In this document: positions 794 to 19,409 of the stretch, in pieces
Position numbering within the stretch: the first letter of the stretch is position 1
Layout: each line of letters opens with the position of its first letter
DNA from: Streptomyces sp. NBC_01463
Lineage (GTDB): Bacteria; Actinomycetota; Actinomycetes; Streptomycetales; Streptomycetaceae
DNA: 64,000 bases
Assembly: GCA_036227345.1 (NCBI GenBank)
Contig: CP109468.1
Span: 7,068,001 to 7,132,000 of the forward strand
Direction of reading: 5' to 3'
Translations under genes and position numbers: made by a program
The notes under the pieces: model-generated
What the model was told of the DNA's origin: nothing
Database searches by the model: none
What the model saw: the letters and a program-made list of their open reading frames with translations, nothing else

Positions 794-1693
794 GTGAGGA
801 TCAAGCGCACCACCCCCCTCAGCGGCAACGCGAGACGCAGCAGGGCCGTCGCCATCGCCGCAGGCCTCGTGGCAGTCGCCGCACTCGCCGTCCCCAGCGC
901 ACAGGCCAGCTCCACCGGAACGTACAGCGCGAACCAGCTCTCCGCCGCGAGCGAAGCCGTCCTCGGCGCCGACGTGGCAGGCACGGCCTGGAACGTCGAC
1001 CCCGCGACGAAGAAGCTCGTGGTCACGGTCGACAGCACCGTCTCCGCTTCGGAGATCCAGCAGATCAAGGACTCCGCGGGCTCCAACGCGGGCGCCCTGC
1101 GCATCGAGCGCACCTCCGGGAAGTTCAGCAAGCTGCTCTCCGGCGGTGACGCCATCTACGCACCCGGCTGGCGCTGTTCCCTCGGATTCAACGTCCGCAG
1201 CGGCAGCACCTACTACTTCCTGACCGCCGGTCACTGCACCGACGGCAACCCGCCCTGGTACACCAACTCCTCGAACACCACCTACATCGGACCGACGGTC
1301 GGCTCCAGCTTCCCGACCAACGACTACGGTCTGGTGCGCTACGACAACGCCGCCGTCTCCCACGAGGGCACCGTCGGCAGCGTCGACATCACCAGTGCGG
1401 CCAACGCCACGGTCGGGATGTCCGTCACCCGCCGCGGCTCCACCACCGGCATCCACAGCGGCACCGTCTCCGCGCTCAACGCCACGGTCAACTACGGCGG
1501 CGGAGACGTCGTCTACGGCATGATCAAGACCAACGTGTGCGCGGAGCCCGGCGACTCCGGCGGTCCGCTCTACTCCGGCTCCAGGGCGATCGGCCTCACC
1601 TCGGGCGGCAGCGGCAACTGCAGCTCCGGCGGTACGACGTTCTTCCAGCCGGTCACCGAGGCGCTCAGCGCGTACGGCGTCAGCGTCTACTGA
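794..1693 (+). CDS. sprB: Streptogrisin B precursor (secreted S1 serine protease)
   Basis: This is a 299-residue pre-pro-protease, the same length as the Streptomyces griseus protease B precursor, which it closely resembles from memory. A GTG start is preceded by GGGAGGAAAC. Residues 1-38 form a twin-positive, hydrophobic signal peptide. A propeptide of about 75 residues follows, and the mature chymotrypsin-fold enzyme begins near Ile-Tyr-Ala-Pro. The catalytic triad is His147 (TAGHC), Asp177 (NDYG) and Ser255 (GDSGGP). Paired cysteines match the family disulfides. It should act outside the cell as a broad-specificity endoprotease after autocatalytic removal of the propeptide. It is monocistronic and followed by two hairpins. 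Confidence 0.95.
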
Positions 1694-2431: not shown

Positions 2432-3358
2432 TCACATCTGATGCCGGGCGAGCCAGTCGGTGTGCTGGGGGGAGACGATGCGCTCGGTCTCGAACACCGC
2501 TCGCGGCCACTGCCGCTCGTTCAGTGTGGTCTCCATCGCCACCTGCATGGACTCCAGGTCCTTCTCCACCAGGGAGTGGGCCGAGATCAGCGGATGGTGG
2601 CGGCGCATCTCGACCCAGGCGAGACAGGCGGCGCCCGCGGCGGAGAGCACCCCGGTCAGGGCGAAGGACTGGCCGACCGAGAACGCCCTGAGCAGGGCGA
2701 GGAGCAGGGCGAGCGCCGTCAGTGCGGCGATCGTGGTCGACCAGGCGAGCGTGGCGCGCCGCGACACCTCCTGGCGTCTGCGGTACCAGCTGCGCTGTTC
2801 GATCAGCCGGTCGCGCACATAGGTCTCCTTGCGCACGGTGAATGCCTTGTCCCGCAATGCGCGCATGGATTCGGTGATGAGCCCGCCGGAATCCGCCGTC
2901 CGGTCCCGGGGATCGGACCAGCCCACCTTGCGGAGCTCCTGCAGCCCCTCCTCGAGCCGATTGGCGAACACCGCTTCGGGGTGATGTGTGCCGGTGTCGA
3001 AAGGTGAGCCATGCACCGAGTAGCGCCAGCACATCGATTTGATGAACTCCGCCGCGGAGCGATTCAGTTGCCAATGCGACTTTGCTTTCCGCCGGGAGGT
3101 GAGGTAGGTCGTGATCAGCACCCCGAGGTAGGCCAACACCGCAACACCATCCGTGAGTTGGAGCGTGCCCGCGACCTCCGCACGCCAGGGCAGCGCGGCC
3201 GGAACCGAGCCCGTGACCAGCAGGATGAGCTGCCACCTGGTGGTGTTGACCGCCTCGCGCTGACGCGCGATCGCGATGGCGTCCGTGTGGTGAAAGAGAT
3301 CCGGCAGATCAGCGTTCCTGAAGACCATGCTCTGCAGTGGTCCGGGAATCGCCGTCAT
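2432..3358 (-). CDS. SLATT/DUF4231-type two-TM protein
   Basis: This protein has 308 residues. I chose ATG at 3358 because GGGAG lies 5 bp upstream; an in-frame GTG at 3364 overlaps that site. Two hydrophobic pairs are visible: about residues 42-90 (Leu-Ile-Leu-Leu-Val-Thr then Ala-Val-Leu-Ala-Tyr-Leu-Gly-Val) and about 195-245 (two close TM helices, Ala-Leu-Thr-Ala-Leu-Ala-Leu-Leu). Between and after them lie charged, coiled-coil-prone helices. This arrangement fits DUF4231/SLATT proteins, predicted membrane effectors paired with SLOG or SMODS nucleotide systems. It faces the SLOG gene tail to tail rather than being co-transcribed. A pore-forming role is inference. Confidence 0.65.
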   Translation of the reverse strand: MTAIPGPLQSMVFRNADLPDLFHHTDAIAIARQREAVNTTRWQLILLVTGSVPAALPWRAEVAGTLQLTDGVAVLAYLGVLITTYLTSRRKAKSHWQLNRSAAEFIKSMCWRYSVHGSPFDTGTHHPEAVFANRLEEGLQELRKVGWSDPRDRTADSGGLITESMRALRDKAFTVRKETYVRDRLIEQRSWYRRRQEVSRRATLAWSTTIAALTALALLLALLRAFSVGQSFALTGVLSAAGAACLAWVEMRRHHPLISAHSLVEKDLESMQVAMETTLNERQWPRAVFETERIVSPQHTDWLARHQM

Positions 3359-3396
3359 GTTCACTCCCGTCTGCGGTTATGTTGTCACTCTGTTGG

Positions 3397-3413: not shown

Positions 3414-3584
3414 TTTGATCCTGGCCGGTCCCGTGTGACGCTCTTGTTCCAAGTGGGCGTCCTCAGTTGCCAACCGAGGCCATGAGAGTAAAGTCGTGCC
3501 GCCGGGCACTGCAATGGTGCAGGTACCAACACTGGTTTCCTGTCCGGAACTATTCCATCGGAACGAATCCCCTCAAGGACGGCC

Positions 3585-3752
3585 GTGAAGACCACTGAAT
3601 CCTCCCTCTCCTTCGCCGTTGCGAAGAAGAGTCGTGTGCCGCTCGCCGCGATCGACGCGCGTGGTGGCGAAGCAGCCAGGAAGCTCGGTCGGGTGCATGC
3701 AGCCTCCGCCGGTCGCCCCAGCCAGGCATCCACCTTCAACTCCTCCCTCTGA
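3585..3752 (+). CDS. fxsA: FxSxx-COOH cyclophane RiPP precursor peptide
   Basis: This is a 55-codon gene starting with GTG and preceded by AAGGA at proper spacing. The peptide has a Ser/Ala/Lys-rich leader (residues 1-49) and ends Thr50-Phe51-Asn52-Ser53-Ser54-Leu55. That is exactly the F-x-S-x-x-COOH signature that names this RiPP family. It lies 74 bp upstream of the fxsB maturase. By analogy with FxsB enzymes of the triceptide class, Phe51 and Ser53 would be joined into a three-residue cyclophane (aryl carbon to Ser C-beta). No leader protease or exporter is encoded nearby, so the fate of the modified peptide is unknown. The gene lies in a segment of lower GC than its neighbours. Confidence 0.85.
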   Translation: MKTTESSLSFAVAKKSRVPLAAIDARGGEAARKLGRVHAASAGRPSQASTFNSSL

Positions 3753-3761
3753 TCCCTTATT

Positions 3762-3809
3762 GCGGATCACTCCTCCGGGGCAGCCGGTCTGCCGGATCAC
3801 CCTTCCGGG
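3762..3809 (+). repeat. Direct repeat between fxsA and fxsB
   Basis: GCGGATCACTCCTCCGGG (3762-3779) and CCGGATCACCCTTCCGGG (3792-3809) match at 15 of 18 positions with 30-bp spacing. They sit in the 74-bp gap between precursor and maturase genes. A possible -10 box, TAGACT, follows at about 3818, only 4 bp before the fxsB ATG. A separate, possibly leaderless, fxsB promoter is therefore conceivable. Confidence 0.3.
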
Positions 3810-3826
3810 CTGGCTAGACTGGTGGA

Positions 3827-6082
3827 ATGACAGGACTTCTGGTCCCTTTCCGTGAAGTAGTCCTCAAGGTTCACAGCAGGTGTGATCTTGCCTGTGACCA
3901 TTGCTATGTCTACGAACATGCCGATCAGAGCTGGCGAACCCGTCCGAAAACAATCTCTGACGACGTCATCTTCCGGACTGCTCAGCGCCTGGCTGAGCAT
4001 GCCAAGACACACGCACTGCCCTCCGTGTCAGTGATCCTGCACGGAGGGGAGCCTCTACTGGCGGGCCCCGCCCGGCTGCGCCGCATCTGCGAAGAGCTGA
4101 CCTCCGCCTTCGACGGCATCGCCGCCCTCGACCTGCGCATCCACACCAACGGGCTGCAGCTCAGTCCGCGCTATCTCGACCTCTTCAGCGAGTACGACGT
4201 CAAGGTGGGCATCTCCCTCGACGGCGACCGCGCGGCCAACGACCGGCACCGCCGCTTCGCCGACGGGCGCAGCAGCCACCCCCTGGTGCTCAAGGCCGTC
4301 GAACTGCTCCGGCAGGAGCGCTACCGCCATCTCAACCTCGGCCTCCTGTGCACCATCGACATCGAGAACGACCCGCACGCGGTCCTCGACGCCCTCACGG
4401 AGCTCGAACCGCCGCTCATCGACTTCCTGCTGCCGCACGCCACCTGGGACGACCCGCCGCCCCGTCCGGACGGATCGCCCACCGCCTACGCCGACTGGCT
4501 CCTCGCGGTCTTCGACCGCTGGCAGGAGCAGGGGCGTCCGGTGCCGGTACGGATCTTCTCCTCGGTCGCCTCCACGCTGAACGGCGGCCCCAGTCTCACC
4601 GAGTCGCTGGGCCTGGCCCCGACCGACCTCGTCGTCGTCGAGACCGACGGCCGGCTGGAGCAGGTGGACTCGCTGAAGAGCGCCTACGAGGGCGCGGCGG
4701 ACACCGGCTTCGACGTCTTCGCGCACTCCTTCGACGAGGTCGCGGCGCACCCCGGGGTGCGGGCTAGGCAGCTCGGCCTGGCGGGCGTCAGCGAGACCTG
4801 CCGCGCCTGCCCCGTCGTACGTTCGTGCGGCGGAGGCCTGTACACCCACCGCTACAGCTCCGCCGGCTCCGGCGAGGGTTTCGACAACCCGTCGGTCTAC
4901 TGCCACGATCTCGCCGCCCTGGTGCACGGCATCGAGGCCCGCACGTCCGCGGACGCCGTGGCACCGGCGGTGGCCGAACCCGCCGAGCTGCTCGCCGCCC
5001 AGGAGGACCTCACCCGCACGCTCCTGGCCCGGCTGCACGCGGACCTGGACGGCAGGGGCGGCGATCCCTGGGCGGCCGGGTGGGAACTGGCGGCCGTGCT
5101 GGAGGGCTCGGAGGAAGGGGCCCGGGAGCTGGACGCCGTACTCGCCCATCCGTACAGCCGCAGCTGGCTGCTGGACTCGCTGGACGCCCTGTACGACGAG
5201 CGCCCGGGAGCGGCGACCGCCGCCGCCGACGGCCTGCGGGCGCTGCTCGCGGCCGCCGCCGTGCGGGCCGGCCTCGATCTCCGCGCACCGGTGACCTACC
5301 GGGACGGCGCGCTGGTCCTGCCCACCCTCGGCCGGCTGATGGTCGGCGGCCCGGGGGAGCACGGCACGGTGCTGGTGTGCGCCGCCGGGGACGGGTTCCT
5401 GGCCGGGGCCGCCGCCGGACCGGCCGAGCGGCGGATCCGACGGGTCCGGCGGCGGGCCGCGGCCGAGCCCGGCTGGCTGCCGGTGCGCGCGTTCGCCCTG
5501 CCCGGCGGCCCGGCCGCGGACCGCGGCTTCGTGATCGACGACCTCGACCCGTACCGCGACTGCTTCACCGGACCCGCGGCGGCCACCCTCGGCGCGGCCG
5601 CGGCCGGCCGGCTGGGTGCCGCGCTCACCGAGGCGTGGGAGCTGATCGAGCGGCGGGCTCCGGCGTACGGCGCGGACTCCGCCGACGGCCCGCTCACCTT
5701 CACCCCGCTCACCGGCTCCGTGCCGGGCGAGCCCTCCGTGGGACGGCACGGATACGGCGCCCTGGGAATCGGCGCGGACGAGCGCGCGTACACGCTGGCG
5801 CTCACTCTGCTGCGCGGAGTGCGGCGGGCGAGATTCCGGGCACTTGCGGACGTCACGGATCTTTACGCGGCGGACGGCTCCTGGGAACATCGAATGCCCT
5901 GGCAGGAGGAATTGGTTCCGTTTTCCCGGCTGCTGGCCGGCACCTATGAACGACTGGCGCTCGCGGCATTCGATCCCCGGTACCGGGACGGAGTGCCGCA
6001 GGCGCTCGACACGCTGGAAGGCGCCGCCGAACTCACCGTCGGCGGAAAACGGCTTCTGGCCCTGATGCGAAAAGAATTCTGA
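3827..6082 (+). CDS. fxsB: Radical SAM/SPASM maturase FxsB with degenerate HEXXH-type extension
   Basis: This 751-residue protein is about twice the length of a bare FxsB. Cys19-x3-Cys23-x2-Cys26 binds the SAM-cleaving 4Fe-4S cluster. A GGEP motif follows (near residue 72), and SPASM-type cysteines lie around 325-365 (CRACPVVRSCGGG and a later Cys). It should install the Phe-x-Ser cyclophane on FxsA. From about residue 390 a second domain resembles the HEXXH-motif peptide-modification family (putative beta-hydroxylases). Where His-Glu-x-x-His is expected, the sequence is Arg663-Gly-Val-Arg-Arg667, so the metal site is lost. This fits the form NCBI calls FxsBH with an inactivated extension. 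The domain may now only bind substrate or partners. Confidence 0.9.
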   Translation: MTGLLVPFREVVLKVHSRCDLACDHCYVYEHADQSWRTRPKTISDDVIFRTAQRLAEHAKTHALPSVSVILHGGEPLLAGPARLRRICEELTSAFDGIAALDLRIHTNGLQLSPRYLDLFSEYDVKVGISLDGDRAANDRHRRFADGRSSHPLVLKAVELLRQERYRHLNLGLLCTIDIENDPHAVLDALTELEPPLIDFLLPHATWDDPPPRPDGSPTAYADWLLAVFDRWQEQGRPVPVRIFSSVASTLNGGPSLTESLGLAPTDLVVVETDGRLEQVDSLKSAYEGAADTGFDVFAHSFDEVAAHPGVRARQLGLAGVSETCRACPVVRSCGGGLYTHRYSSAGSGEGFDNPSVYCHDLAALVHGIEARTSADAVAPAVAEPAELLAAQEDLTRTLLARLHADLDGRGGDPWAAGWELAAVLEGSEEGARELDAVLAHPYSRSWLLDSLDALYDERPGAATAAADGLRALLAAAAVRAGLDLRAPVTYRDGALVLPTLGRLMVGGPGEHGTVLVCAAGDGFLAGAAAGPAERRIRRVRRRAAAEPGWLPVRAFALPGGPAADRGFVIDDLDPYRDCFTGPAAATLGAAAAGRLGAALTEAWELIERRAPAYGADSADGPLTFTPLTGSVPGEPSVGRHGYGALGIGADERAYTLALTLLRGVRRARFRALADVTDLYAADGSWEHRMPWQEELVPFSRLLAGTYERLALAAFDPRYRDGVPQALDTLEGAAELTVGGKRLLALMRKEF

Positions 6083-6328
6083 ATCCTGGATTCCGGTTCG
6101 ATGGGAAGGGGGCGGATGCGGGAGAATCGGAAGGAACAACCGGGAGGAACGACCGCAGACCGCATTCGATCAGGAGTGTGGTCGGCGGAGCGCGTGAACA
6201 GATGACTGAAAAGTGGCGTTGATTGACCGAACGTCATGGGGGTGGAGCAAGGTCCGCTCCGGAATGATGAATTCGCTCGCATTCTCTTCACTCCTCGGGT
6301 GCGGGTGCTCACACAGGACGGGGGTCGT

Positions 6329-7666
6329 GTGCACGCGACGACGCAGCAGCGAGCGGCGGACCATCGGCCGTACTTCTTCTTGAGTTATGCCCACACACCG
6401 GGGTACGGCGGTGGCACCGACCCCGACATGTGGGTCGAGCGGCTCTTCCAGGATCTGTGTGGCCATGTGATGGCCATGACCGATCTGCCCGCGGGCGCCC
6501 CCGCGGGCTTCATCGACCGCGAGATACGCTCCGGCGAGGGCTGGTCCGAACGGCTCGGTGAAGTGCTCGCCACCTGCCGGGTGTTCGTACCGCTGTTCTC
6601 GCCGCGCTACTTCGCCAGCGAGATGTGCGGCAAGGAGTGGTACGCCTTCGCCCAGCGCGCCATCCATTACCGGGCCCGCTCCAACCAGCCGGCCGAGGCG
6701 ATCGTGCCGGCGCTCTGGGTGCCGGTGCCGCCCAGCCAGCTGCCGGGGCCCGCCGAGCGATTACAGTTCAACCACCGTGATTTCGGTGACCGTTACGTCA
6801 GCGACGGACTGTACGGGCTGATCAAGCTCAAACTCTTCAACGAGGAGTACGAGCGTGCGGTGTACGAGCTCGCCAAACGCATCGTCAGCGTCGCCGACAC
6901 CGTACGGATCGGCACCGGCCGCCCCGTCGACTACCGGCTCGCGCCCAGCGCCTTCGGCTCACCGGGCAGCATGGCCGCCGGCGGCCCCCGCCCCATGCAG
7001 GTGACCATCGCCGCCGCCACCCGCCACGACCTGCCCGAGGGGCGCAACGCCGACTACTACGGCGACAACCCGCAGGACTGGAACCCCTACCACCCGGACG
7101 CCGCGCGCCCCCTCGCCTACGTGGCCGAGGACCTGGTGCGCTCCCTCAACTACCAGGCCACCATCGCCTCCTTCGACGAGGAGGCCGGCCTGCCGGGCGG
7201 CAAACAGCCACCGACCACCCCGGAGATCCTGCTCGTCGACCGCTGGGCGCTCCAGGACGAGGACCGGTGCCGGCGGCTCGCCGCCTTCGACGCGGAGAAC
7301 CGCCCCTGGGTGACGATGGTCGTGCCGTGGAACCGCGACGACCACGAGAGCAGAGCCGCGGAGGCCGAACTCACCGCCAAGCTCGAACGGACCATGCCCA
7401 CCAAGATGCGCCAGGGCCGGGCCTACTGCCGCGCGGCCGCCAAGGGCGTGCCGAGCATGGAGGCCTTCGGCCAGATCCTGCCGCAGGTGGTCGAGGTGGC
7501 CGCCCAGCAGTATCTGAGACACGCGGCCGTCTATCTGCCCGCCACCGGCGGCGGAGGCCCCACCGAACGGACACGGCTGATGGGACCGATGGCGCAGACC
7601 CAGTACATCCCCGGGACACATGACGCTTCGACGGATGCGGAGGACACGGATGACGGCCAGTCGTGA
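6329..7666 (+). CDS. fxsC: TIR-like protein FxsC
   Basis: The protein has 445 residues from GTG at 6329. An in-frame ATG at 6236 exists, but the 31 codons between use A/T at the third position far more than the gene body, so I reject that start. Residues 13-150 form a TIR-like domain opening with Arg-Pro-Tyr-Phe-Phe-Leu-Ser-Tyr-Ala-His. The C-terminal half (about 230-420) matches the conserved FxsC C-terminal region, including Tyr-Tyr-Gly-Asp-Asn-Pro and Trp-Asn-Pro-Tyr. FxsC is a marker of FxSxx-COOH loci; its biochemistry is unknown. Codon 145 (6761-6763) is TTA, the bldA codon. It overlaps fxsT by 17 bp. A 246-bp gap after fxsB may hold its own promoter. Confidence 0.85.
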   Translation: MHATTQQRAADHRPYFFLSYAHTPGYGGGTDPDMWVERLFQDLCGHVMAMTDLPAGAPAGFIDREIRSGEGWSERLGEVLATCRVFVPLFSPRYFASEMCGKEWYAFAQRAIHYRARSNQPAEAIVPALWVPVPPSQLPGPAERLQFNHRDFGDRYVSDGLYGLIKLKLFNEEYERAVYELAKRIVSVADTVRIGTGRPVDYRLAPSAFGSPGSMAAGGPRPMQVTIAAATRHDLPEGRNADYYGDNPQDWNPYHPDAARPLAYVAEDLVRSLNYQATIASFDEEAGLPGGKQPPTTPEILLVDRWALQDEDRCRRLAAFDAENRPWVTMVVPWNRDDHESRAAEAELTAKLERTMPTKMRQGRAYCRAAAKGVPSMEAFGQILPQVVEVAAQQYLRHAAVYLPATGGGGPTERTRLMGPMAQTQYIPGTHDASTDAEDTDDGQS

Positions 7667-10600
7667 CGGGCGCATCGTCACCTTCTACTCGTACAAGGGC
7701 GGTACCGGGCGCACCATGGCCCTGGCCAACACCGCCTGGATCCTCGCCGCCAACGGCAAACGGGTACTGGCCGTCGACTGGGACCTGGAGGCCCCCGGAC
7801 TCCACCGGTTCTTCCACCCGTTCCTCGACCCCTCGACGCTCGGCGCCACCACCGGGGTCATCGACCTGATCACCGAGTACGCCTGGGCCGCGACCAGCCC
7901 CGTGCAGCGGGCCGACGACTGGCACCGGGACTACGCCCGGATCCAGCCGCACGCGGTCTCGCTCACCCCGGAGGCGCTCGGCTGGGAGTTCCCGCAGGGC
8001 GGCACGCTCGACTTCGTCTCCGCCGGACGGCAGAACCGCGAGTACTCCGCGACCGTCTCCACCTTCGACTGGGACAACTTCTACGACCGCCTCGGCGGCG
8101 GCCACTTCTTCGACGCCCTGCGCGACGACATGAAGGCCAACTACGACTACGTCCTCATCGACAGCCGCACCGGCCTCAGCGACATCGCCGACATCTGCAC
8201 CGTCCACCTGCCCGACGTGCTCGTCGACTGCTTCACCCTCAGCGACCAGTCCATCGACGGCGCCGCCTCGGTCGCCCGGCAGATCTCCGAGCGCTACACC
8301 GGCCGCCCCATATCGATCTTCCCCGTCCCGATGCGCATCGACGAGGGCGAGAAGGAGAAGGCCGACGCCGGCCGGGCCCTGGCCCGGCTGAAGTTCGACC
8401 GGCTGCCGCGCGACCTCTCGGGGGACGAACTCACCGCCTACTGGGGCGCGGTGGAGATCCCGTACCGCCCCTACTACGCGTACGAGGAGACACTGGCCAC
8501 CTTCGGCGACGAGGCGGGCCTCACCAACTCCCTCCTCTCCGCCTTCGAGCGGCTCACCTCCGTCATCACCGGCCAGCAGGTCACCTCGATGCCGGCGGTC
8601 GGCGAAGAGGTACGGCTGCGCATCCGCGACGCCTTCACCCGGCGCAGGCCCGCCCTGCCCGCCGATCTCCTGCTCAGCTATGTGGCGGAGAACCGGATGT
8701 GGGCCGACTGGATCGAGTCCGTGCTCACCCGGGCCGGCTTCCGCGTCGTGCCGCGCGACGTGTCCGCCGAGCGGGAGCCCCAGGAGGCGACCGCCGTCGC
8801 CGCGGAGAACGCGGTCCGGACCGTGGTGCTGCTCTCCAGCGCCTATCTGAAGTCGCAGCGCGCGGTGAACCTCTGGGACCGGGCCGTCGCCGAGGACCCG
8901 GGCGGCGGGCGGCGCCATCTGCTGCCCCTCAGGGTCGGTGACGTCCGGCTCTCCGCGCCCTACATCGACCGCAACCCCGTCGATCTGTTCCGGCTCGACG
9001 AGGTGCACGCCACCGCCGCCCTGTTACGGGCCCTGGACCGGCCCGTCCAGCTCACCGACGCGGTCTCGCCCGGACCGCGCTTCCCCGGCACCGTCCCCCG
9101 GATCTGGAACGCACCGCCGCGCAACCCCGGCTTCACCGGCCGCTCCCTGGTCCTGGAGCGGATGCGCGACCAGCTCGGCGGCGGCATGGCCGTCGTGCTG
9201 CCGCAGCCGCAGACCCTGTACGGACTCGGCGGCGTCGGCAAGACGCAGGTCGCCCTGGAGTACGTGCACCGGTTCATGGCCGACTACGACCTGGTCTGGT
9301 GGATATCGTCCGAGCAGACCGACGACGTGGTCGCCGGCCTCGCCGAACTCGCCGTCCGGCTCGGCGCCCAGGGCGGCGACGACATGGCGGCCGCCTCCCA
9401 GGAGGCCGTCGACCTGCTGCGCCGGGGCGTGCCGTCGGACCGCTGGCTGCTGGTCTTCGACAACGCCGACGACCCCGAGCGGCTGCGGCGCTACTTCCCC
9501 CAGGGCGGCTCCGGCCACATCCTGGTCACCTCCCGCAACCAGGCCTGGTCCCAGCACGGCGACGCGCTGCCCGTCGACGTCTTCCTGCGCGAGGAGTCCA
9601 TCGAGCACCTCCAGCGCCGGGCACCGGGACTGAGCGACGAGGACGCCGCCCAGGTGGCCACCGCCGTGGGCGACCTGCCGCTCGCCGTCGAACAGGCCGC
9701 GGCCTGGATCGCGGAGACCGCCACCCCGATCGACACCTATCTGGAACAGCTGGCCCAGCAGGCACCGGAGGTCCTGGCGCTCAACCAGCCGGCCGGCTAC
9801 CCCGAGCCCGTCGCGGCGACCTGGAACATCTCCATCCAGCGCCTCAAGGAGCGCTCGCCCGCCGCGGTGCGCCTCCTCCAGCTCTGCGCCTTCTTCGCCC
9901 CCGAGCCGATCTCGGGGAACCTGCTGTACAGCAAGGAGATGATCGAGGCGCTGAAGCCGTACGACGCCTCGCTCCAGGAGAAGCTGGTGCTGGGCCGGGT
10001 CATCCGGGAGATCGGCCGGTTCGCCCTCGCCAAGGTCGACCAGGTCTCCAACTCCATCCAGGTGCACCGGCTCGTGCAGGCCGTCATCCGGGCCCAGCTC
10101 ACCGAGGAGGAGCAGCGGGACGCCCGGCACGCCGTCCACCGCATCCTGGCCGGTGCCAGGCCCGATGACGACGAGCCGATCGACAACCCCGCCAACTGGC
10201 CTCAGTTCGCCACGATATGGCCGCACCTCGGCCCGTCCGACGCCCGTAACTGCAAGGAGCCCGAGGCCCGCAGGCTGCTGATCGACCGGGTGCGCTACCT
10301 GTGGAAGCGCGGTGACTTCAGGACGGCCACCACGCTCTGCGAGGAGCTGCGCGAGATCTGGCGCGAGACGCTGGGGGAGCGGGACATCCAGTACCTCTAC
10401 CTCTGCTTCCACCTGTCCAACATCTACCGCTCGCGCGGCCGTTACGTGGAGGCGAAGGACCTCGACGAGATCACGCTGGCGACCCAGCGGGAGGTGCTGG
10501 GCCCGGAGCACCCGCACACGTACATGAGCACCAGCAGCCTGGCCACGGACCTCGGCACGCTCGGCGAGTACACCAGGGCGATCGAGCTGGCGACCGAGGC

Positions 10601-11585
10601 CACCGACGGGTTCAACCAGATCTTCCACGACTCGCACCCCAGGGCCCTGGCCGCGGCCAACAACCTGGCGTTCACCCTGCGCTCCATCGGCCAGTACGCC
10701 CGGGCCCGCGAGATCGACCAGGACGTCTTCGACCGGCGCCGCGAGGTGCTCGGCGAGGAACACCCGTACAGCCTCTCCTCGGCCATGAACCTGGCCCGTG
10801 ACCTGCGGGACGTCGGACGGTACGAGGACTCGGTCGGCATCCTCAGCCGTACGTACGACAGCTACAAGGGCACGCTCGGCCGGTCCTTCCCCGGCACGCT
10901 CAGCGCGGCCAAGAGCCTGGCGGTCTCGCTGCGCCGGGCCGGCCGGCTGGAGGACGCCCGCCGGCTGACGGTGGCGACCAGGGCCCGGTACCGGGCCAAG
11001 TACACCTCCGCCAACCCGGAGTCGCTGGCCTGTGATCTCAATCTGGCGGCCGACCTGTTCGCGGCCGGCGAGTCGACCGAGGCCCGGGACGCCGCGCAGG
11101 AGGTCGTCGACCAGTACGTGAAGGTGCCGGGCGAGAAGCACCCGTACACGCTGGCGGCGCTGAACAACCTGGGGGTCTACCTCGGGGGGACCGGCGCGGC
11201 CGAGGAGGCGGTGCGGGTGCTCACCCGGGTGGTCGCCCTGATGCGTGAGGTGTACGGGCGGGAGCACCCCAACACGCTGTTCAGCGTGATGAACCTGGCC
11301 AACGCCACGGCGGAGCGGGGCGATCTCGACCTGGTGCTGAAGACCGAGCGGGTCCTGGCGGTGCAGTTCCGGGACGTACTGGGCGCACACCATCCGGAGA
11401 CCCTGGCCATGAAGTCGAACATGGCGGTCACGCTCGACGCGATGGGGCGCAAGGACGAGGCGCTCCAGGTCAGGGCCGAGACGGTCGACGAGCTGTCCCG
11501 GCAGCTCGGTGACGAGCATCCGCTCACCCGGATCGCCCGGGACGAGCGCCGGTTCCAGCGCGAACTGGAACCGCAGGCGGTGTGA
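7650..11585 (+). CDS. fxsT: FxSxx-COOH system TPR/STAND protein FxsT
   Basis: The protein has 1311 residues. I chose ATG at 7650 because GGAGGAC precedes it at good spacing; ATGs at 7620 and 7635 lie deeper inside fxsC. Domain order: a ParA/MinD-like P-loop ATPase with deviant Walker A KGGTGRT (16-22) and an acidic Asp-Trp-Asp Walker region; a TIR-like domain from about 337 (Leu-Leu-Leu-Ser-Tyr); an NB-ARC/STAND NTPase with GLGGVGKT near 525-532 and Leu-Leu-Val-Phe-Asp-Asn-Ala-Asp; and about ten kinesin-light-chain-type TPRs from about 890 to the end, each with Glu-His-Pro-type turns. Such architecture suggests a ligand-sensing signalling ATPase. Codon 459 (9024-9026) is TTA. The ligand is unknown; the FxsA product is an obvious candidate. 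Confidence 0.88.
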   Translation: MTASRDGRIVTFYSYKGGTGRTMALANTAWILAANGKRVLAVDWDLEAPGLHRFFHPFLDPSTLGATTGVIDLITEYAWAATSPVQRADDWHRDYARIQPHAVSLTPEALGWEFPQGGTLDFVSAGRQNREYSATVSTFDWDNFYDRLGGGHFFDALRDDMKANYDYVLIDSRTGLSDIADICTVHLPDVLVDCFTLSDQSIDGAASVARQISERYTGRPISIFPVPMRIDEGEKEKADAGRALARLKFDRLPRDLSGDELTAYWGAVEIPYRPYYAYEETLATFGDEAGLTNSLLSAFERLTSVITGQQVTSMPAVGEEVRLRIRDAFTRRRPALPADLLLSYVAENRMWADWIESVLTRAGFRVVPRDVSAEREPQEATAVAAENAVRTVVLLSSAYLKSQRAVNLWDRAVAEDPGGGRRHLLPLRVGDVRLSAPYIDRNPVDLFRLDEVHATAALLRALDRPVQLTDAVSPGPRFPGTVPRIWNAPPRNPGFTGRSLVLERMRDQLGGGMAVVLPQPQTLYGLGGVGKTQVALEYVHRFMADYDLVWWISSEQTDDVVAGLAELAVRLGAQGGDDMAAASQEAVDLLRRGVPSDRWLLVFDNADDPERLRRYFPQGGSGHILVTSRNQAWSQHGDALPVDVFLREESIEHLQRRAPGLSDEDAAQVATAVGDLPLAVEQAAAWIAETATPIDTYLEQLAQQAPEVLALNQPAGYPEPVAATWNISIQRLKERSPAAVRLLQLCAFFAPEPISGNLLYSKEMIEALKPYDASLQEKLVLGRVIREIGRFALAKVDQVSNSIQVHRLVQAVIRAQLTEEEQRDARHAVHRILAGARPDDDEPIDNPANWPQFATIWPHLGPSDARNCKEPEARRLLIDRVRYLWKRGDFRTATTLCEELREIWRETLGERDIQYLYLCFHLSNIYRSRGRYVEAKDLDEITLATQREVLGPEHPHTYMSTSSLATDLGTLGEYTRAIELATEATDGFNQIFHDSHPRALAAANNLAFTLRSIGQYARAREIDQDVFDRRREVLGEEHPYSLSSAMNLARDLRDVGRYEDSVGILSRTYDSYKGTLGRSFPGTLSAAKSLAVSLRRAGRLEDARRLTVATRARYRAKYTSANPESLACDLNLAADLFAAGESTEARDAAQEVVDQYVKVPGEKHPYTLAALNNLGVYLGGTGAAEEAVRVLTRVVALMREVYGREHPNTLFSVMNLANATAERGDLDLVLKTERVLAVQFRDVLGAHHPETLAMKSNMAVTLDAMGRKDEALQVRAETVDELSRQLGDEHPLTRIARDERRFQRELEPQAV

Positions 11586-11627: not shown

Positions 11628-12503
11628 TCAGCCTCCCGACGTGTCCAGCAGCCAGGTGAGGATGCGGGGGAGGGCGTGCAGCGCGTCGAAGTGCGCGGCC
11701 GCCGGTTCCACCACGACGGTGGCACCCGGGATGCGGCTCGCCAGCCAGCGGGTGTGCCCGACCGGTGAGAACACGTCCTTCTCGCCGTGCCACAGCAGCA
11801 CCGGACCGGTGATGTCGGCCGGGTCGAACCCCCACGGGTGGCTGAACGCGAGTGCGTCGTCGATCCAGCCGTACGCGGAAGTGCGCAGCCCCTCACGGTA
11901 GTTGCGCAGCAGCATGGTGCGGACGCCGGCGTCGTTGACCACCATCCGGTCGGAGTCGGTCAGCTCCCGGCGCAGATCGTCGATCAGCCGGACCGGGTTC
12001 TTCCTGATCACCGCGGACCGTGAGATGAACGATTCCGCGAGCCCGTCCGGGTCGGCGGTCGCCGTGGTGTACGCCAGCACGTTGGAGGCGGCCATCCCGT
12101 CGAACCAGTCGAGCCCTTCGGCGTCCCGGGGCGCCAGCCCGACCAGGGCGGCGGTACGGGTGACCCGCTCGGGCATCAGCGCCGCACAGGCCAGGGCGTG
12201 GCAGGCGCCACCGGACCGCCCCACCACGGCGAACCGGTCGAGTCCGATGTGGTCCGCGATCGCCCGTACGTCCTGGACGGCATCGGCGACACAGCGGCCC
12301 GGAAGCCGGTCGGAGTCGCCGTATCCCGGCCGGTCGTAGGTGATCAGCTGGGTCTTTCGCTGGTACAGCACCATGCCGCGCGGTGCCGGCCCGAGTCTGC
12401 TGCCGGGCATCCCGTGCAACAGGAACACCGGTCTGCCGCGGGGATCCCCCAGCCGCTCCACCACCAGTTGACGTCCGTCGGCCGCGCGCACCCGACTGCG
12501 CAC
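11628..12503 (-). CDS. Alpha/beta-fold hydrolase
   Basis: The protein has 291 residues from a GTG at 12503 that carries GAGGAGG six bases upstream, which settles the start. It shows the alpha/beta-hydrolase core: an oxyanion His-Gly-Met-Pro-Gly-Ser loop near residue 30, the nucleophile elbow Gly-Arg-Ser-Gly-Gly, a late Trp-His-Gly-Glu-Lys-Asp acid strand and a C-terminal Ala-His-Phe-Asp catalytic histidine. There is no signal peptide, so it is cytoplasmic. The substrate is unknown; epoxide, ester or lactone hydrolysis are all possible. It is convergent with fxsT and monocistronic. Confidence 0.8.
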   Translation of the reverse strand: MRSRVRAADGRQLVVERLGDPRGRPVFLLHGMPGSRLGPAPRGMVLYQRKTQLITYDRPGYGDSDRLPGRCVADAVQDVRAIADHIGLDRFAVVGRSGGACHALACAALMPERVTRTAALVGLAPRDAEGLDWFDGMAASNVLAYTTATADPDGLAESFISRSAVIRKNPVRLIDDLRRELTDSDRMVVNDAGVRTMLLRNYREGLRTSAYGWIDDALAFSHPWGFDPADITGPVLLWHGEKDVFSPVGHTRWLASRIPGATVVVEPAAAHFDALHALPRILTWLLDTSGG

Positions 12504-12921
12504 TACGTGCCTCCTCGCGATCCATGCGGACACGGCGTGTCCGGCTTTCCCCGCACCATCCGATGATGACCCATCAGAGCCGTTACCGGGATGGCGCGTG
12601 GGGAGAATCCGGGAGGCTCCGGGGGAGCGGACGGGTGCGGAGCGCCGGGGATGCGCCGGGAATCGGATCCGCAGAGGCGAATACCGGACAGGACTAGTCC
12701 TCACCCACTGCCGACCGGGTGGTTGCACGGGGTGTTCGCAGAAGGAACCGACGAGGCCCGACCACCGGTAAGTGAACGTGTCACGACCGAACAGGTGGTG
12801 TCGTGTGTGCGTCCTGAAGTCGGCCTTGTGTGCTATCTGGACGGTCGGAATAGTGGGCGCCCCATCCTCCGTGTACGGGCGACCCCACATCATCCGTGCG
12901 CGGCCCCACAGGAGGTCGAAG
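12504..12921. other. 418-bp intergenic region between divergent hydrolase and sprD
   Basis: I find no convincing gene here. The last 150 bp read open in the sprD frame, but they lack a good ribosome site and normal codon bias until TTG at 12922. The region must hold promoters for both divergent genes. I could not pick out reliable -35/-10 boxes. Confidence 0.5.
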
Positions 12922-14007
12922 TTGAAGCATCGACGCATGTCCAGGAAGCGCGCAGTGCTGGCCGGCTCGGCAGTGGTCGCCCTGGTCGCCGCAGGAGTGA
13001 CGTTCCAGAGTGCGAACGCGAGTGACGACATACCGCAGTTCACCGCCCGGACGCTGAACGCGGCGGCGGCCGGAAAGCTCGCCACCGGTCTCGGCAAGGA
13101 CCTGGGCACCGACGCGGCGGGCGCGTACTACGACGCCTCGTCGAAGAACCTCGTGATGAACGTGGTCGACGAGGCCGCCGCGGAGCAGGTGCGGCAGGCG
13201 GGCGGCAGGGCGAGAGTCGTGCAGAACTCGCTGGCCGAGCTGAAGTCGGCCCGGCAGACCCTGACCGGCAAGGCCACGATCCCCGGAACCTCGTGGGCCG
13301 TCGACCCGGTCAGCAACAAGGTGGTCGTCACGGCGGACCGCACGGTCAGGGGCGACGCCTGGCAGAAGCTCAGCTCGGTGGTCGAGGGGCTGGGCGGCAA
13401 GGCCGAGCTCAAGCGGTCCGCCGGGGAGTTCAAGCCGTTCATCGCGGGCGGCGACGCGATCTGGGGCAACGGCGGGCGCTGCTCGCTCGGCTTCAACGTG
13501 GTCAAGGACGGCGAACCGTACTTCCTGACCGCCGGTCACTGCACCGAGGCGATCTCCAGCTGGTCGGACTCCCAGGGCGGCGCGGAGATCGGTACGAACG
13601 CCGGTTCGTCGTTCCCGGACAACGACTACGGCCTGGTGAAGTACACCTCGGACACGGCGCACCCCAGCGAGGTCGACCTCTACGACGGCTCCACCCAGCC
13701 GATCACCAAGGCGGGCGAGGCGACCGTGGGGATGACGGTGTCGCGCAGCGGCTCCACCACCCAGGTGCACGACGGCGAGGTGACGGGCCTGGACGCCACG
13801 GTCAACTACGGCAACGGCGACATCGTCAACGGGCTGATCCAGACGACGGTCTGCGCCGAGCCCGGAGACAGCGGCGGTTCGCTCTTCGCCGGTGACACGG
13901 CGATCGGTCTGACCTCGGGCGGCAGCGGCGACTGCTCCTCGGGCGGCGAGACCTTCTTCCAGCCGGTGCCGGAGGCGCTGTCCGCCTTCGGGGCCGAGAT
14001 CGGCTGA
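12922..14007 (+). CDS. sprD: Streptogrisin D precursor (secreted S1 serine protease)
   Basis: This protease precursor has 361 residues from TTG at 12922, where AGGAGG sits 6 bases upstream. The frame is open farther upstream, but no better start is visible. The signal peptide spans roughly 1-37 (Arg-rich start, then Val-Val-Ala-Leu-Val-Ala-Ala-Gly). It is followed by a long propeptide of about 130 residues, longer than that of SprB, as known for SprD. The mature domain begins near Ile-Ala-Gly-Gly-Asp-Ala-Ile-Trp. The triad is His206, Asp235 and Ser317 (EPGDSGG). The sequence agrees closely with S. griseus SprD from memory. It is monocistronic and followed by a strong hairpin. Confidence 0.93.
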
Positions 14008-14077: not shown

Positions 14078-14575
14078 TCAGGCGGCCCGGGCCGGTCTGC
14101 CGGAGTCCGTCTTCGCGGGTGCGACACCGAAGATGTCGACCGCGTGGTAGTACGTCCAGGCCGTCGCGTTGCACGAGGTCAGCGTCGCGCCGGAGTAGGC
14201 GGAGCACACCCGCTTGAGATCCGCGTAGAGCGCGGAGTCGAGGCGGGCCTTGTTGGCGGAGAACGTGCCGGCGGCCTTGTAGTTCCGGTAGCCGAAGTCG
14301 TGCCGGGCGCAGGCCGTCTGGAAGGGGAAGCCGAACGGGTTGTCGGGCGAGGTGCTGCAGTAGTCCGTCGACCAGTCGAAGCCGTAGGCGGCCCAGGCGC
14401 CCTGGTTGTTGCGGGCGGCGTTCCAGGTGTTGTAGCTGGCGGCGCTCGTCTGGGTCCAGGAGCTGAGCACCTGGGGCTTGTCCGCGGGGGCGGCCGAGGC
14501 GGATGCGGCGGGCAGCAGGGCGAGCGGCAGCGACAGGGCTACGGTGCCGAGTAACGCGGCGACATGGCGACGCAT
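14078..14575 (-). CDS. Secreted prokaryotic phospholipase A2
   Basis: The protein has 165 residues. I chose ATG at 14575 because GGAGG lies 6 bases upstream; an in-frame ATG at 14641 lacks such a site. Residues 1-29 form a signal peptide ending Ala-Ser-Ala. The active-site motif Cys-Ala-Arg-His92-Asp93-Phe-Gly-Tyr-Arg-Asn-Tyr is that of bacterial PLA2 such as the Streptomyces violaceoruber enzyme. Four cysteines could form two disulfides. The enzyme should hydrolyse the sn-2 ester of phospholipids outside the cell with Ca2+. It is monocistronic and convergent with sprD. Confidence 0.9.
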   Translation of the reverse strand: MRRHVAALLGTVALSLPLALLPAASASAAPADKPQVLSSWTQTSAASYNTWNAARNNQGAWAAYGFDWSTDYCSTSPDNPFGFPFQTACARHDFGYRNYKAAGTFSANKARLDSALYADLKRVCSAYSGATLTSCNATAWTYYHAVDIFGVAPAKTDSGRPARAA

Positions 14576-14721
14576 GGACAACCTCCGTGGGGTGAGGGGA
14601 GCCGTGTGGTCCCGCTCCTCTCGTGCGAGGCGCGGGATCACCCCAGGATGCCGTCATGTACCTGCCATGCCTAGTCATTGTGTCAACTCGACGCCGGGGG
14701 TTGGGGCGCCGTTCTTCTCCG

Positions 14722-15768
14722 CTACGCCGCTGTCGAGCCGCCGCCCGCCGCCCCCGCGAGCGGGGCGTCCGCCGGCTCCGGCTTCCTGCGCATCGCCATC
14801 AGCAGGGTGATGACCGTGCCCACCACCGCCCACGCGGACAGCACCAGCAGCGGTCCGGTCACCGCGTTGCCCTTGAAGTACGCGATCGAGCGGGCCACCC
14901 AGGTGCCGGCGCCCGGTGGCAGTGCGGGGCCGATCGCCCGCCAGAAGTCCGGCAGCATCGGGAGCGGGAAGGCGCCGCCCGCGCTCGGGTTGCCCGCGAT
15001 CACCACGATCAGGACCGCCAGGCCGATGCCGACGATGCCGGTGAGCGCCTGCAGGGCGAGCGTGATCATGCCGACCGCGAAGACGGTCAGCGCGCCCAGG
15101 CCCGACAGCCCCCAGAAGGATCCGGGCAGGGCTCCGAGGATCGGGCCGATGATGACGGCGCCGCCGATCCCGCCCGCGATCGAGTACAGCGCCATGACGC
15201 CGGTCCGGATCACCGCGCGCTGACGGTTGGCGGGGCGGGAGCCCGCGCTGATCGCCAGGATCGAGGCGCAGAGGTAGCCGCCCACGCACCAGCCCACGAC
15301 CAGGTAGAAGGACGAGAGTCCGTCGAAGTCCTGGTCCGACGCCGGGGCCACGTCCACGGAACGCACCGTGCGGCGCTGGGTGAGATCGACCTTCTTGATG
15401 ATCTCCGTCAGCGAGTTGGCCAGGACGGTGCCGCCGCCGGAGGCGACCAGCACGGTGTCGGTGGTGCCCCGGGGGCTGACGATGAGGGCGCCGTCGATGT
15501 CCCGGTCCAGGATCTGCCGGCGGGCGGTGGCCGCGTCGGTGACCGTGCGGGGGTCGAGGGGGCCGCCGGGGAGGTTCTTCAGTTCGGTGACCAGCTGGGC
15601 GGACACCTGCTGGGGTGCGACGACACCGAAGGGGACGTCGGTCGGCTTCGGGTTGTGGAGCGCGCCGATGTAGGACGCGATGAACAGCAGCTGCAGCGCC
15701 AGTACGCCGATGACGAGCAGCGCGGCTCGCGGAGTGACGGCACTCTTCACCTCGTCGACGAAAGTCAT
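14722..15768 (-). CDS. YhgE/Pip- or DUF3533-like ABC-2-type membrane protein
   Basis: This 348-residue polytopic protein has one N-terminal TM helix (about 18-38). An extracellular domain of about 125 residues follows, with the Pip-like beginning Pro-Phe-Gly-Val-Val. A cluster of five or six C-terminal TM helices runs from about 155 to 335, with Gly/Ala-rich loops. This is the topology of ABC-2-type permease relatives in the YhgE/Pip and DUF3533 groups. No ATPase gene adjoins it, so it may work alone or with a distant partner. The substrate is unknown. It is divergent from dnaE2. Confidence 0.65.
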   Translation of the reverse strand: MTFVDEVKSAVTPRAALLVIGVLALQLLFIASYIGALHNPKPTDVPFGVVAPQQVSAQLVTELKNLPGGPLDPRTVTDAATARRQILDRDIDGALIVSPRGTTDTVLVASGGGTVLANSLTEIIKKVDLTQRRTVRSVDVAPASDQDFDGLSSFYLVVGWCVGGYLCASILAISAGSRPANRQRAVIRTGVMALYSIAGGIGGAVIIGPILGALPGSFWGLSGLGALTVFAVGMITLALQALTGIVGIGLAVLIVVIAGNPSAGGAFPLPMLPDFWRAIGPALPPGAGTWVARSIAYFKGNAVTGPLLVLSAWAVVGTVITLLMAMRRKPEPADAPLAGAAGGGSTAA

Positions 15769-15923
15769 GCCCCCACGGTCCGGGGTGCCCGTCGTCCCCG
15801 CAGTCGGGGCCGGGCCGAATGGCTGAGAGGTGGCCCGCCTCTCAGGTATCGCACGAATGTTCGAACGTGGTCTATGGTGGAGAGCGAGGGGGTGGTGAGT
15901 ACGGATCGGTTCAGGAGGTGCAG

Positions 15924-18900: not shown

Positions 18901-19409
18901 TGCGCGAGGCACGGCACGGGGACACCGTGCTGGTCGCGGGCGCCAAGGCGGCCACCCAGACCCCGCCGATCCGCTCCGGGCGCCGGGTCGTCTTCACCAC
19001 CCTGGACGACGGCACGGGCCTGGTCGACCTGGCCTTCTTCGACGACAGCCACGCCGCCTGCGCGTACACCGTCTTCCACTCCTGGCTGCTGCTGGTGCGC
19101 GGAGTGGTGCAGCGGCGCGGGCCGCGGAGCCTGAGCGTGGTCGGCGCGGCGGCCTGGAACCTGGCCGAGCTGGCCGAACTGCGGCGCACCGGAGGGCTCG
19201 ACGCGGTCGCGGCCCGGCTGGCGGAGGTGCCCGCTCCGGAGAAGGAGGAGGGCGCCGCGTCCGACGAGGCCCCGGCCGCCGACGACGGCCGCCGGATCCG
19301 GATGCCCACCGGCTACGAGATGAACCCCTGGTCCGACCTGCAGCCGCCCGGCGAAGGGGCGCCCACCGGAAGGAAGCTGTGGCACCAGAGCCCGGGGAGC
19401 GCGGGATGA
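15924..19409 (+). CDS. dnaE2: Error-prone DNA polymerase III alpha subunit DnaE2
   Basis: The protein has 1161 residues. The GTG at 15924 has AGGAGG five bases upstream and begins Pro-Gly-Phe-Thr-His-Leu-His-Thr, the start of the PHP domain. The polymerase palm carries Pro-Asp-Ile-Asp-Ile-Asp (about 429-434). A helix-hairpin-helix region and a C-terminal OB fold follow (about 1010-1080). DnaE2 is the alternative replicase that performs damage-induced translesion synthesis, with ImuA'/ImuB in mycobacteria. The stop overlaps the start of the next gene as ATGA, so the two are translationally coupled. The upstream GTTCGAAC is not a proper LexA box. Confidence 0.93.
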   Translation: MPGFTHLHTVSGFSLRYGASHPERLAERAAERGMDALALTDRDTLAGTVRFAKACEREGVRPLFGVDLAVAPAGRAEGDGRTYRLRTPVRGGAFVDESAPRVTFLARDGAQGWAELCRLVTAAHAAVPEGGRPLVGRSALPAEGLTVLLGPDSEVGRALAAGRPDRAAVLLAPWREVYGDDLRLEAVHHGRDGTGPGSLRLAARTVGFAAEQGIRAVLTNAVRYADAGQGPVADVLDSARRLVPVDPRRAPLDSGERWLKDASAMAETAERITTAAGLGPGAGARLLAETRHTADACAVDPEDDLGLGSVHFPEPHLVGAGRRTAQRVLASRAAAGMVLRGYDRRPGYWDRMHHELDIIAHHGFASYFLTVAQVVDDVREMKVRVAARGSGAGSLVNHLLGIAHADPVEHGLLMERFLSKRRFVLPDIDIDVESARRLDVYRAIIGRFGAERVATVAMPETYRVRHAIRDVGAALSMNPAETDRLAKAFPHIRARDALAAMEELPELREVARTKEKYGRLWELVEALDALPRGIAMHPCGVLLSDASLLRRTPVMPTSGEGFPMAQFDKEDVEDLGLLKLDVLGVRMQSAMAHAVAEVRRASGEEVDLDGVPPGDPETYRLIRTAETLGCFQIESPGQRDLVGRLQPADFHDLVVDISLFRPGPVAADMVRPFIEARHGRAPVRYPHPDLEGPLRDTYGVVVFHEQIIEMVDIMTGCGRDEADRVRRGLSDPESQGRIRVWFAQHAAARGYGAEVIARAWEIIEAFGSYGFCKAHAVAFAVPTYQSAWLKAHHPAAFYAGLLTHDPGMYPKRLLLADARRRGVPVLPLDVNRSAAVHRIELVSGEGGGGESWGLRLALSDVHGISAAEVARIEDGQPYTSLLDFWQRARPGKPAAERLAQVGALDAFGANRRDLLLHLSELHRAQRGAGSGGSGAQLPLGGGHRTGSIGLPDLNEAERLSAELGVLSMDVSRHLMSDHHAFLKELGAVSAKRLREARHGDTVLVAGAKAATQTPPIRSGRRVVFTTLDDGTGLVDLAFFDDSHAACAYTVFHSWLLLVRGVVQRRGPRSLSVVGAAAWNLAELAELRRTGGLDAVAARLAEVPAPEKEEGAASDEAPAADDGRRIRMPTGYEMNPWSDLQPPGEGAPTGRKLWHQSPGSAG

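Follow-up and report, generated by a model that had tools for sequence, protein, structure and literature searches.

Glutamate-bearing and glutamate-less TIR domains and a linked SLATT pair at an FxSxx-COOH locus of Streptomyces sp. NBC_01463

Main finding

At the FxSxx-COOH locus of the soil bacterium Streptomyces sp. NBC_01463, the two TIR domains appear, from the residues they carry, to divide labour: FxsC keeps a catalytic-type glutamate, and the TIR of FxsT is without it. A SLATT membrane protein and its partner P0007 form a near-invariant pair that travels with FxsC, and an alpha/beta-hydrolase is often encoded nearby; all three observations are new here. In the model we prefer, with a probability of about 40%, the FxsA peptide tunes FxsT, FxsT in turn switches on the TIR of FxsC, and at this locus the product may open SLATT via the partner in a Thoeris-like manner. 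Which families the proteins belong to, whether a TIR has the glutamate and which genes are linked are read from the sequences of the window (the whole stretch of 64,000 nucleotides that was analysed) and of its relatives.

The four core genes

In a profile search, FxsA, FxsB, FxsC and FxsT at 3585-11585 all exceed the NCBIfam cut-offs, and each shows what NCBIfam asks of a member of the FxSxx-COOH system (Table 1). These scores bear out the families named in a preliminary description of this DNA, and matches to PF13676, TIR_2, NB-ARC and TPR support the TIR and STAND nature of the proteins. The interval given there is correct for the four named genes and too narrow for the gene set that stays together; its FxsT of 1311 residues agrees with an inner start at Met11 of a frame that measures 1321 aa from its open start. 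By domain scan, FxsT consists of a ParA-like KGGVGR-type ATPase (motif KGGTGR), TIR_2, NB-ARC, DUF7779 and TPR modules. No RNA family reached the gathering threshold in the window.

Table 1. Positions of the locus features within the window
Feature	Position	Strand	Remarks
P0007, 159 aa	1922-2401	+	unnamed family, possibly SLOG/DprA-type Rossmann domain; SLATT partner
SLATT_3 + SLATT_1 membrane protein, 310 aa	2432-3364	-	predicted pore-forming effector; NF033610 182.6 bits, NF033634 101.6 bits
Promoter-like block TTGCCA-N16-TAAAGT	3467-3494	+	upstream of fxsA; conserved, putative promoter
FxsA precursor, 55 aa	3585-3752	+	GTG start, ends FNSSL; TIGR04268 36.5 bits, cut-off 28
FxsA C-terminal core FNSSL	3735-3749	+	F51-N52-S53, expected cyclophane site (predicted from family)
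FxsB (FxsBH), 751 aa	3827-6082	+	TIGR04269 588.8 bits, cut-off 370; NF040587 400.4 bits
FxsC, 476 aa	6236-7666	+	TIR-like N-terminal and FxsC C-terminal domain; NF040588 233.8 bits; TIGR04276 243.5 bits; PF13676
FxsC Glu134 codon	6635-6637	+	aligns with WCxxE Glu of plant TIRs
FxsT, open frame 1321 aa	7620-11585	+	NF040586 1033 bits, cut-off 300
alpha/beta-hydrolase	11628-12539	-	C-terminal 303 aa of ORF 11628-13109; PF00561; convergent with fxsT

The FxsA peptide and its maturase

Directly upstream of FxsB, a small ORF ending in [FYWH]x[ST]xx was found on the coding strand in 121 of 136 loci whose FxsB was found by search, whereas the opposite strand of the same interval yielded 9 in all, so FxsA is more than a chance frame; the remaining 15 loci gave no upstream small ORF with this ending. 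Among 37 close relatives, FxsA substitutions number 276, 300 and 621 by codon position. Purifying selection is just partly shown, because non-synonymous codons (459) outnumber synonymous ones (383) in the same set. Phe and Ser counts over 117 FxsA precursors carry no weight, since these precursors were selected by the pattern F.S.. itself.

In an alignment of 9 close loci, most share the promoter-like block letter for letter, and with up to 3 mismatches allowed the genome contains a single copy. Its 58 matches in 57 loci of relatives (at most 8 mismatches in 28) were counted without a shuffled control, and the weakest are possibly chance. A hairpin between fxsA and fxsB was rejected (z -1.76; 11 of 200 shuffles equally good).

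FxsB combines a radical SAM/SPASM maturase (residues 8-370, with a CDLACDHC motif) and a hydroxylase-like C-terminal domain (residues 378-750) in which HExxH is lost, the "inactivated beta-hydroxylase extension" of NF040587. Just 18 of 137 loci have the motif, and the FxsB of a second full Fxs locus in the same genome retains it. MscB (IPR026335) is presumably an enzyme of the FxsB type. Its three-residue cyclophane joins Phe C4 to Ser Cbeta, according to a triceptide review (PMC11002830), and the present locus resembles the triceptide enzymes in radical SAM/SPASM family and F-x-S motif. FxsA contains this motif as F-N-S, and FxsB is predicted to cross-link Phe51 to Ser53.

Earlier work (Kaur et al., eLife 2020; PMC7159879, section 24) described systems that combine an FxSxx peptide with TIR-AP-ATPases carrying an inactive ParA-like domain, in actinobacteria both VMAP-linked and standalone. 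The pairing of a RiPP with TIR/STAND proteins, called undescribed in the preliminary description, is already in that section. Like those systems, ours has an FxSxx peptide, a radical SAM/SPASM protein and an AP-ATPase with TIR and TPRs, and an inactive MinD/ParA-like domain beside AP-ATPase, TIR and TPRs places it with the standalone type. Unlike section 24, where a metallopeptidase gene is named, the annotated neighbours here include no zincin-like metallopeptidase; the sole HExxH-type domain is the FxsB C-terminus, with its motif lost, and this may be the metallopeptidase of the 2020 system. Section 24 has no mention of the FxsC glutamate, its loss in FxsT, the SLATT pair or the alpha/beta-hydrolase. 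The preliminary description had likewise missed the SLATT pair, the hydrolase, the HExxH loss of FxsB and the restriction of the glutamate to FxsC.

For the FxSxx peptide, the literature consulted offers a function only as a proposal, and section 24 of PMC7159879 suggests a "peptide toxin or signal". The peptide itself might be a toxin or amplifying effector, released on an FxsT/FxsC trigger, with FxsC and FxsT controlling rather than responding. Although the conserved FxS-type ending upstream of FxsB fits this as well, the hydroxylase-like HExxH is rare among the loci and lost here, and no protease or exporter has a demonstrated link; we consider the reading improbable. In denying any linked exporter or protease gene, the preliminary description was too strong, as an ABC-2-type membrane protein is encoded at 14722-15768, two trypsin-type genes flank the cassette and the alpha/beta-hydrolase is adjacent, but nothing ties these genes to FxsA. 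The ABC and trypsin genes persist at sites without Fxs (L201, L202, L206).

Two TIR domains of different type

The glutamate of the plant TIR motif WCxxE is catalytic. The best matches of the FxsC TIR profile are the plant TIRs L6, RUN1 and Roq1, followed at lower rank by proteins labelled as NAD+ hydrolase or as ADP-ribosyl cyclase, and in the alignments shown the WCxxE Glu of such entries takes the position of the FxsC Glu. Because the scaffold TIR MyD88 was matched too (E 0.01), the contrast between enzyme and scaffold is drawn from the glutamate and not from profile matches. Taking all FxsC matches, 165 of 170 TIRs have the Glu (another count, limited to the top FxsC of each locus, covered 159), and at least one Glu copy is present in 164 of 164 loci; four loci with tandem FxsC have Glu in one copy and Gln in the other. 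In the FxsT TIR, the Glu occurs in 0 of 145, and NADase activity of this domain is rejected. Among its relatives, FxsT retains the NB-ARC P-loop in 141 of 146, and all 145 of 145 have the ParA-like loop KGGxGRT. The presence of Glu suggests that FxsC may act as an NADase.

The SLATT pair and the alpha/beta-hydrolase

At an identity of at least 44%, 73 SLATT places were kept; 11 rows were dropped, namely 3 second halves of split matches and 8 remote ones (27-33%), of which 7 come from genomes that lack FxsC. A P0007-family member (rows of at least 50% identity) is encoded no more than 3 kb from SLATT at 70 of the 73 places, and 66 of the 73 have an FxsC no more than 12 kb away, in several flank types (window-type, MreB-type and others). 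No SLATT at this identity was found in genomes without FxsC over cut-off, where only the seven remote relatives (27-32%) occur. The SLATT arm is optional, because no SLATT occurs within 12 kb at 70 of the 136 FxsC places. The SLATT of L117 was recorded in one locus survey and is absent from the later flank tally.

A SLOG-type assignment of P0007 is weak. P0007 itself has no Pfam match; among 26 family members, DprA (PF02481) was matched in 4 (best E 0.001) and YpsA-SLOG (PF06908) in 3 (best E 0.0012), and with less significant E the scan of alignment A8 hit families of other kinds too, for example Phage_depo_C in 3 members (best 0.016). Against solved structures, A8 found engineered proteins first (E 0.0011 and 0.029) and DprA next (0.049), and alignment A7 found elongation factor P at best (E 0.73). 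Profiles from local alignments of DprA and LOG gave no significant match in profile-profile comparison, and PADLOC ShosA was matched in two of four members (E 0.055 and 0.063).

The alpha/beta-hydrolase (nearest PDB entry 9wlv, a carboxylesterase) is distantly like esterases and proline iminopeptidases. It is found near 97 of 136 FxsC places, and 90 of 113 hydrolase places lie near FxsC, after 7 weaker rows (at most 43% identity) were dropped. Although linked, it is also kept at the window-type site of 7 loci that have none of the other genes, so we rejected it as a core component and regard it as accessory.

SLATT, its partner and the hydrolase could simply have stood beside the Fxs cassette for a long time without sharing a function with it. 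Most linkage indeed comes from a single syntenic site, where besides the solitary hydrolases SLATT and partner are kept without Fxs in 20 kb in three loci (L194-L196). In contrast, the SLATT pair also adjoins divergent Fxs loci without the window flank genes (L186, L209-L211), a hydrolase 62% identical to this one adjoins the second Fxs locus of the genome, and close SLATT relatives are confined to genomes with FxsC, which makes mere neighbourhood rather doubtful.

Distribution of the loci

The 181 loci comprise the 80 whose FxsC is closest to this one among 406 relatives, L033, 80 from a genus survey and 20 chosen exceptions. All six genes stand at a window-type flank in 93 of 181, and since 80 were chosen for closeness of FxsC, much of the linkage reflects shared descent. 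FxsC-FxsT without FxsB or a convincing FxsA occurs in four loci, so some loci can do without the peptide. FxsC over cut-off was found in 91 of 246 genomes of this genus and in 4 of 346 phylum-wide genomes (three of the four from this genus, one being this genome), and no FxsC relative was confirmed in viral contigs.

This concentration in one genus and the lack of FxsC in viral contigs would suit a peptide that signals to sister hyphae or regulates development, with FxsC and FxsT setting a cell-death or differentiation programme rather than phage defence. We give this little credence: no receptor was seen, no exporter is tied to FxsA, and loci with cassette parts missing, as in dispensable defence genes, do exist, although they were deliberately sought and no frequency follows.

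Proposed mechanism

For the preferred model, we infer a cross-link, a peptide-FxsT contact, NADase activity, a signal and a pore, which would form an intracellular conflict system. FxsB would cross-link Phe51 to Ser53, and the modified FxsA would stay intracellular, where it would serve FxsT as a ligand or set its threshold. FxsT would be a STAND switch in which TPRs sense, NB-ARC oligomerises and the Glu-less TIR serves as scaffold; the oligomer would recruit FxsC, whose TIR may cleave NAD+ or make an ADP-ribose-type signal. In loci of this kind, the SLOG-like partner could read the signal and SLATT open, and the gene neighbours suggest that the cluster may end in a membrane-damaging alarm response.

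Thoeris (PMC11204291) uses the TIR protein ThsB and a ThsA of SIR2-SLOG or TM-macro type. The possible logic is alike, from TIR enzyme to SLOG-like sensor to membrane effector; unlike Thoeris, the SLOG-like protein and SLATT are separate genes here, a STAND protein and a RiPP are added, and no ThsA effector of either type stands beside the TIR among the annotated neighbours. Phage TIR-SLATT neighbourhoods, in which SLATT is predicted to be a membrane effector regulated by ADPr derivatives (PMC9503650), also place a TIR gene beside SLATT, but as described in that excerpt they are without the RiPP and STAND present here.

A more specific cascade, in which the cyclophane RiPP sets the STAND threshold, the dead TIR nucleates active FxsC and the product acts through the SLOG-like protein on a SLATT pore, seems to us unlikely. 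Our literature search found no immune pathway with a radical-SAM-modified peptide as intracellular ligand of an NLR-like protein, and if true, this cascade would seemingly be the first. With a TIR predicted to be capable of catalysis, a linked membrane-effector pair and a hydrolase, the "toxin or signal" idea can be broken down into steps open to experiment: FxsC would deplete NAD+ and form a nucleotide product, the SLOG-like protein would bind it, and SLATT would open.

The Fxs locus and its distribution

All four genes that the preliminary description had assigned to the Fxs locus were found where it had placed them, on the plus strand, each scoring above its own NCBIfam cut-off. The window corresponds to G000:C1:7068001-7132000 in a genome of 9.07 Mb. 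Because the fxsC and fxsT genes overlap, they are probably translationally coupled.

Features of the Fxs locus and its surroundings (positions in the window)
Feature	Position	Strand	Remark
Trypsin-type gene, upstream side	794-1693		alpha-lytic-protease prodomain
P0007	1922-2401	+	convergent to the SLATT gene; family without Pfam or NCBIfam name
SLATT_3+SLATT_1 protein	2432-3364	-	divergent to fxsA
Promoter-like block	3467-3494	+	28 nt, upstream of fxsA
FxsA	3585-3752	+	NCBIfam above cut-off
FxsB	3827-6082	+	NCBIfam above cut-off
FxsC	6236-7666	+	NCBIfam above cut-off
FxsT	7620 (or 7650)-11585	+	NCBIfam above cut-off
Alpha/beta-hydrolase	11628-12539	-	convergent to fxsT
Trypsin-type gene, downstream side	12772-14007		alpha-lytic-protease prodomain
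Prokaryotic phospholipase A2 gene	14078-14641
ABC-2-type membrane protein gene	14722-15768
Error-prone-type DNA polymerase III alpha (DnaE2-like) gene	15819-19409		beside the site in many relatives

The nearest named relatives of FxsC, from Streptomyces sp. or43 and S. poriferorum, are 99% identical. Within Streptomyces, 91 of 246 genomes encode an FxsC above the cut-off, against 4 of 346 genomes sampled across the phylum. Matches occur in five plasmid records, three of which cover at least 80% of FxsC, and no relative in viral contigs was confirmed.

A second full Fxs locus lies roughly 0.66 Mb away in the source genome (L033:6414-14541, also on G000:C1); its FxsA ends in FQSSV. Compared with the window, identity is 50% for FxsC, 53% for FxsT and 62% for the downstream hydrolase. 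FxsB of the window is an FxsBH fusion. Its C-terminal domain (NF040587, 400 bits) is similar to the HExxH peptide hydroxylase yet no longer contains that motif, whereas the FxsBH of L033 keeps an intact HEFQH (TIGR04267, 187 bits). The HExxH string is found in 18 of 137 loci having this C-terminal domain.

The two TIR domains

Glu134 of FxsC is the glutamate of an SxxCGxE motif. This residue is kept in 165 of 170 FxsC TIR matches, and every one of 164 loci has at least one Glu-bearing copy. In the other five matches it is replaced by Gln (four) or Asp (one). All four Gln copies come from loci with tandem FxsC (L178, L180, L187 and L190), in each of which the sister copy retains Glu; these tandem copies appear as if split into enzyme and scaffold. 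A profile built from 19 diverse FxsC TIRs matched best the plant TIRs L6, RUN1 and Roq1 (E 1.5e-5 to 3e-4), followed at lower rank by entries annotated as ADP-ribosyl cyclase or NAD+ hydrolase, and it also matched scaffold TIRs such as MyD88 (E 0.01). In the profile alignments shown, the FxsC glutamate falls on the WCxxE glutamate of plant TIRs, which we take to be catalytic.

Every one of the 145 FxsT rows that have a residue at this position shows Leu, Val, Ile, Ala, Thr, Phe or Met instead. The profile of the FxsT TIR matched TRR-2, which is Toll-related (E 4e-5), and gave a weak match to MyD88 (0.05). An NB-ARC P-loop was detected in FxsT of 141 out of 146 loci. The ParA-like loop has the form KGGxGRT in all 145 of 145 cases, in agreement with the "inactive MinD/ParA-like domain" described in PMC7159879. 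Since the glutamate is kept in FxsC and lost in FxsT, FxsT looks like a sensor and scaffold and FxsC like an enzyme.

SLATT, P0007 and the hydrolase as neighbours

Leaving out rows below 44% identity, 73 SLATT places were found in the 246 genomes, 66 of them within 12 kb of an FxsC above the cut-off; the genomes of the remaining seven do carry such an FxsC. At an identity of at least 50%, P0007 homologues also number 73, and 70 of them have a SLATT gene no more than 3 kb away; conversely, a homologue accompanies 70 of the 73 SLATT genes. At L193, SLATT is present without a P0007-type partner. The SLATT arm is optional, as SLATT lies near 66 of 136 FxsC places. L033 shows no SLATT pair within the 20-kb stretch examined. 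The hydrolase is near 97 of the 136 FxsC places. Counting hydrolase places instead, FxsC is nearby at 90 of 113, and 13 belong to genomes that lack FxsC.

We also compared 181 loci, comprising the best 80 of 406 relatives by FxsC, L033, 80 loci from the genus survey and 20 exceptions. The complete set of six genes is found with window-type flanks in 93 loci, with MreB-type flanks in seven and with other flanks in two. The SLATT/P0007 pair also adjoins far more divergent Fxs loci lacking the hydrolase (L186, L209, L210, L211). Among the matches listed, the FxsB-C-T cassette is reversed relative to its SLATT and hydrolase flanks in L107-L109 and L111-L113, a group that includes S. virginiae and S. 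xanthophaeus.

In a Pfam scan of 26 members of the P0007 family, DprA matched four (best E 0.001) and YpsA-SLOG three (best E 0.0012), with unrelated families matching at weaker E. Against solved structures, two engineered proteins ranked first (E 0.0011 and 0.029) and DprA next (0.049). Comparing the family profile with local alignments of DprA and LOG gave nothing significant. A SLOG-type P0007 is thus a lead and not a finding. PMC9503650 describes YpsA-like SLOG domains as including cADPR-sensing members and SLATT as a predicted membrane effector regulated by ADPr derivatives that adjoins TIR genes in phages, and PMC11204291 reports 3'cADPR bound by the SLOG domain of ThsA.

Incomplete and rearranged loci

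Loci with natural deletions were deliberately sought out, so no frequency can be taken from them. L194 keeps the SLATT pair and the promoter-like block (8 of 28 positions mismatched, the -10 part within one), and the next gene is a homologue of the downstream trypsin-type gene, everything from fxsA through the hydrolase being gone. The loss is larger in L195, where what remains includes the SLATT pair and, in degraded form as in L194, the promoter-like block of fxsA; L196 has SLATT and its partner without Fxs beside an MreB-type flank, the hydrolase alone is left in seven loci, and L204 holds fragments.

L200 contains an FxsA-like ORF, FxsB and the hydrolase without FxsC or FxsT. Conversely, L148, L162, L167 and L177 carry FxsC and FxsT with no FxsB within the stretch examined and no convincing FxsA, the candidates being a weak opposite-strand match in L167 (E 0.006) and one ORF in L162 that ends in FxSxx without a profile match. 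These partial loci indicate that FxsA-FxsB and FxsC-FxsT can be separable, and the FxsA peptide may be a tuning layer. FxsC-type TIRs also occur inside long proteins without fxsB nearby. Among the six examined, the L120 protein has many TPRs ahead of the FxsC part, AAA_16 matches weakly in the L189 protein, and no further Pfam domain was seen in those of L141, L168, L175 and L192.

Novelty and proposed mechanism

The core Fxs locus is a new example of an already known type, and PMC7159879 is a relevant published treatment of FxSxx-COOH systems. In the openly licensed literature, no paper linking FxsB to cyclophanes was found, no title concerned a RiPP or radical SAM with TIR/NB-ARC, and FxsA/FxsB/FxsC gave only unrelated material, none of which proves absence. 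What sets this locus apart is the SLATT pair, together with the predicted split of roles between its two TIRs.

The observations are the sequence features given above; the model considered most likely goes beyond them. In it, the modified FxsA peptide would act inside the cell, either as a ligand of FxsT or by regulating its threshold, FxsT would gather FxsC via TIR-TIR contacts, and FxsC would then use up NAD+ or produce a nucleotide signal, which in loci like the present one may act via P0007 and SLATT.
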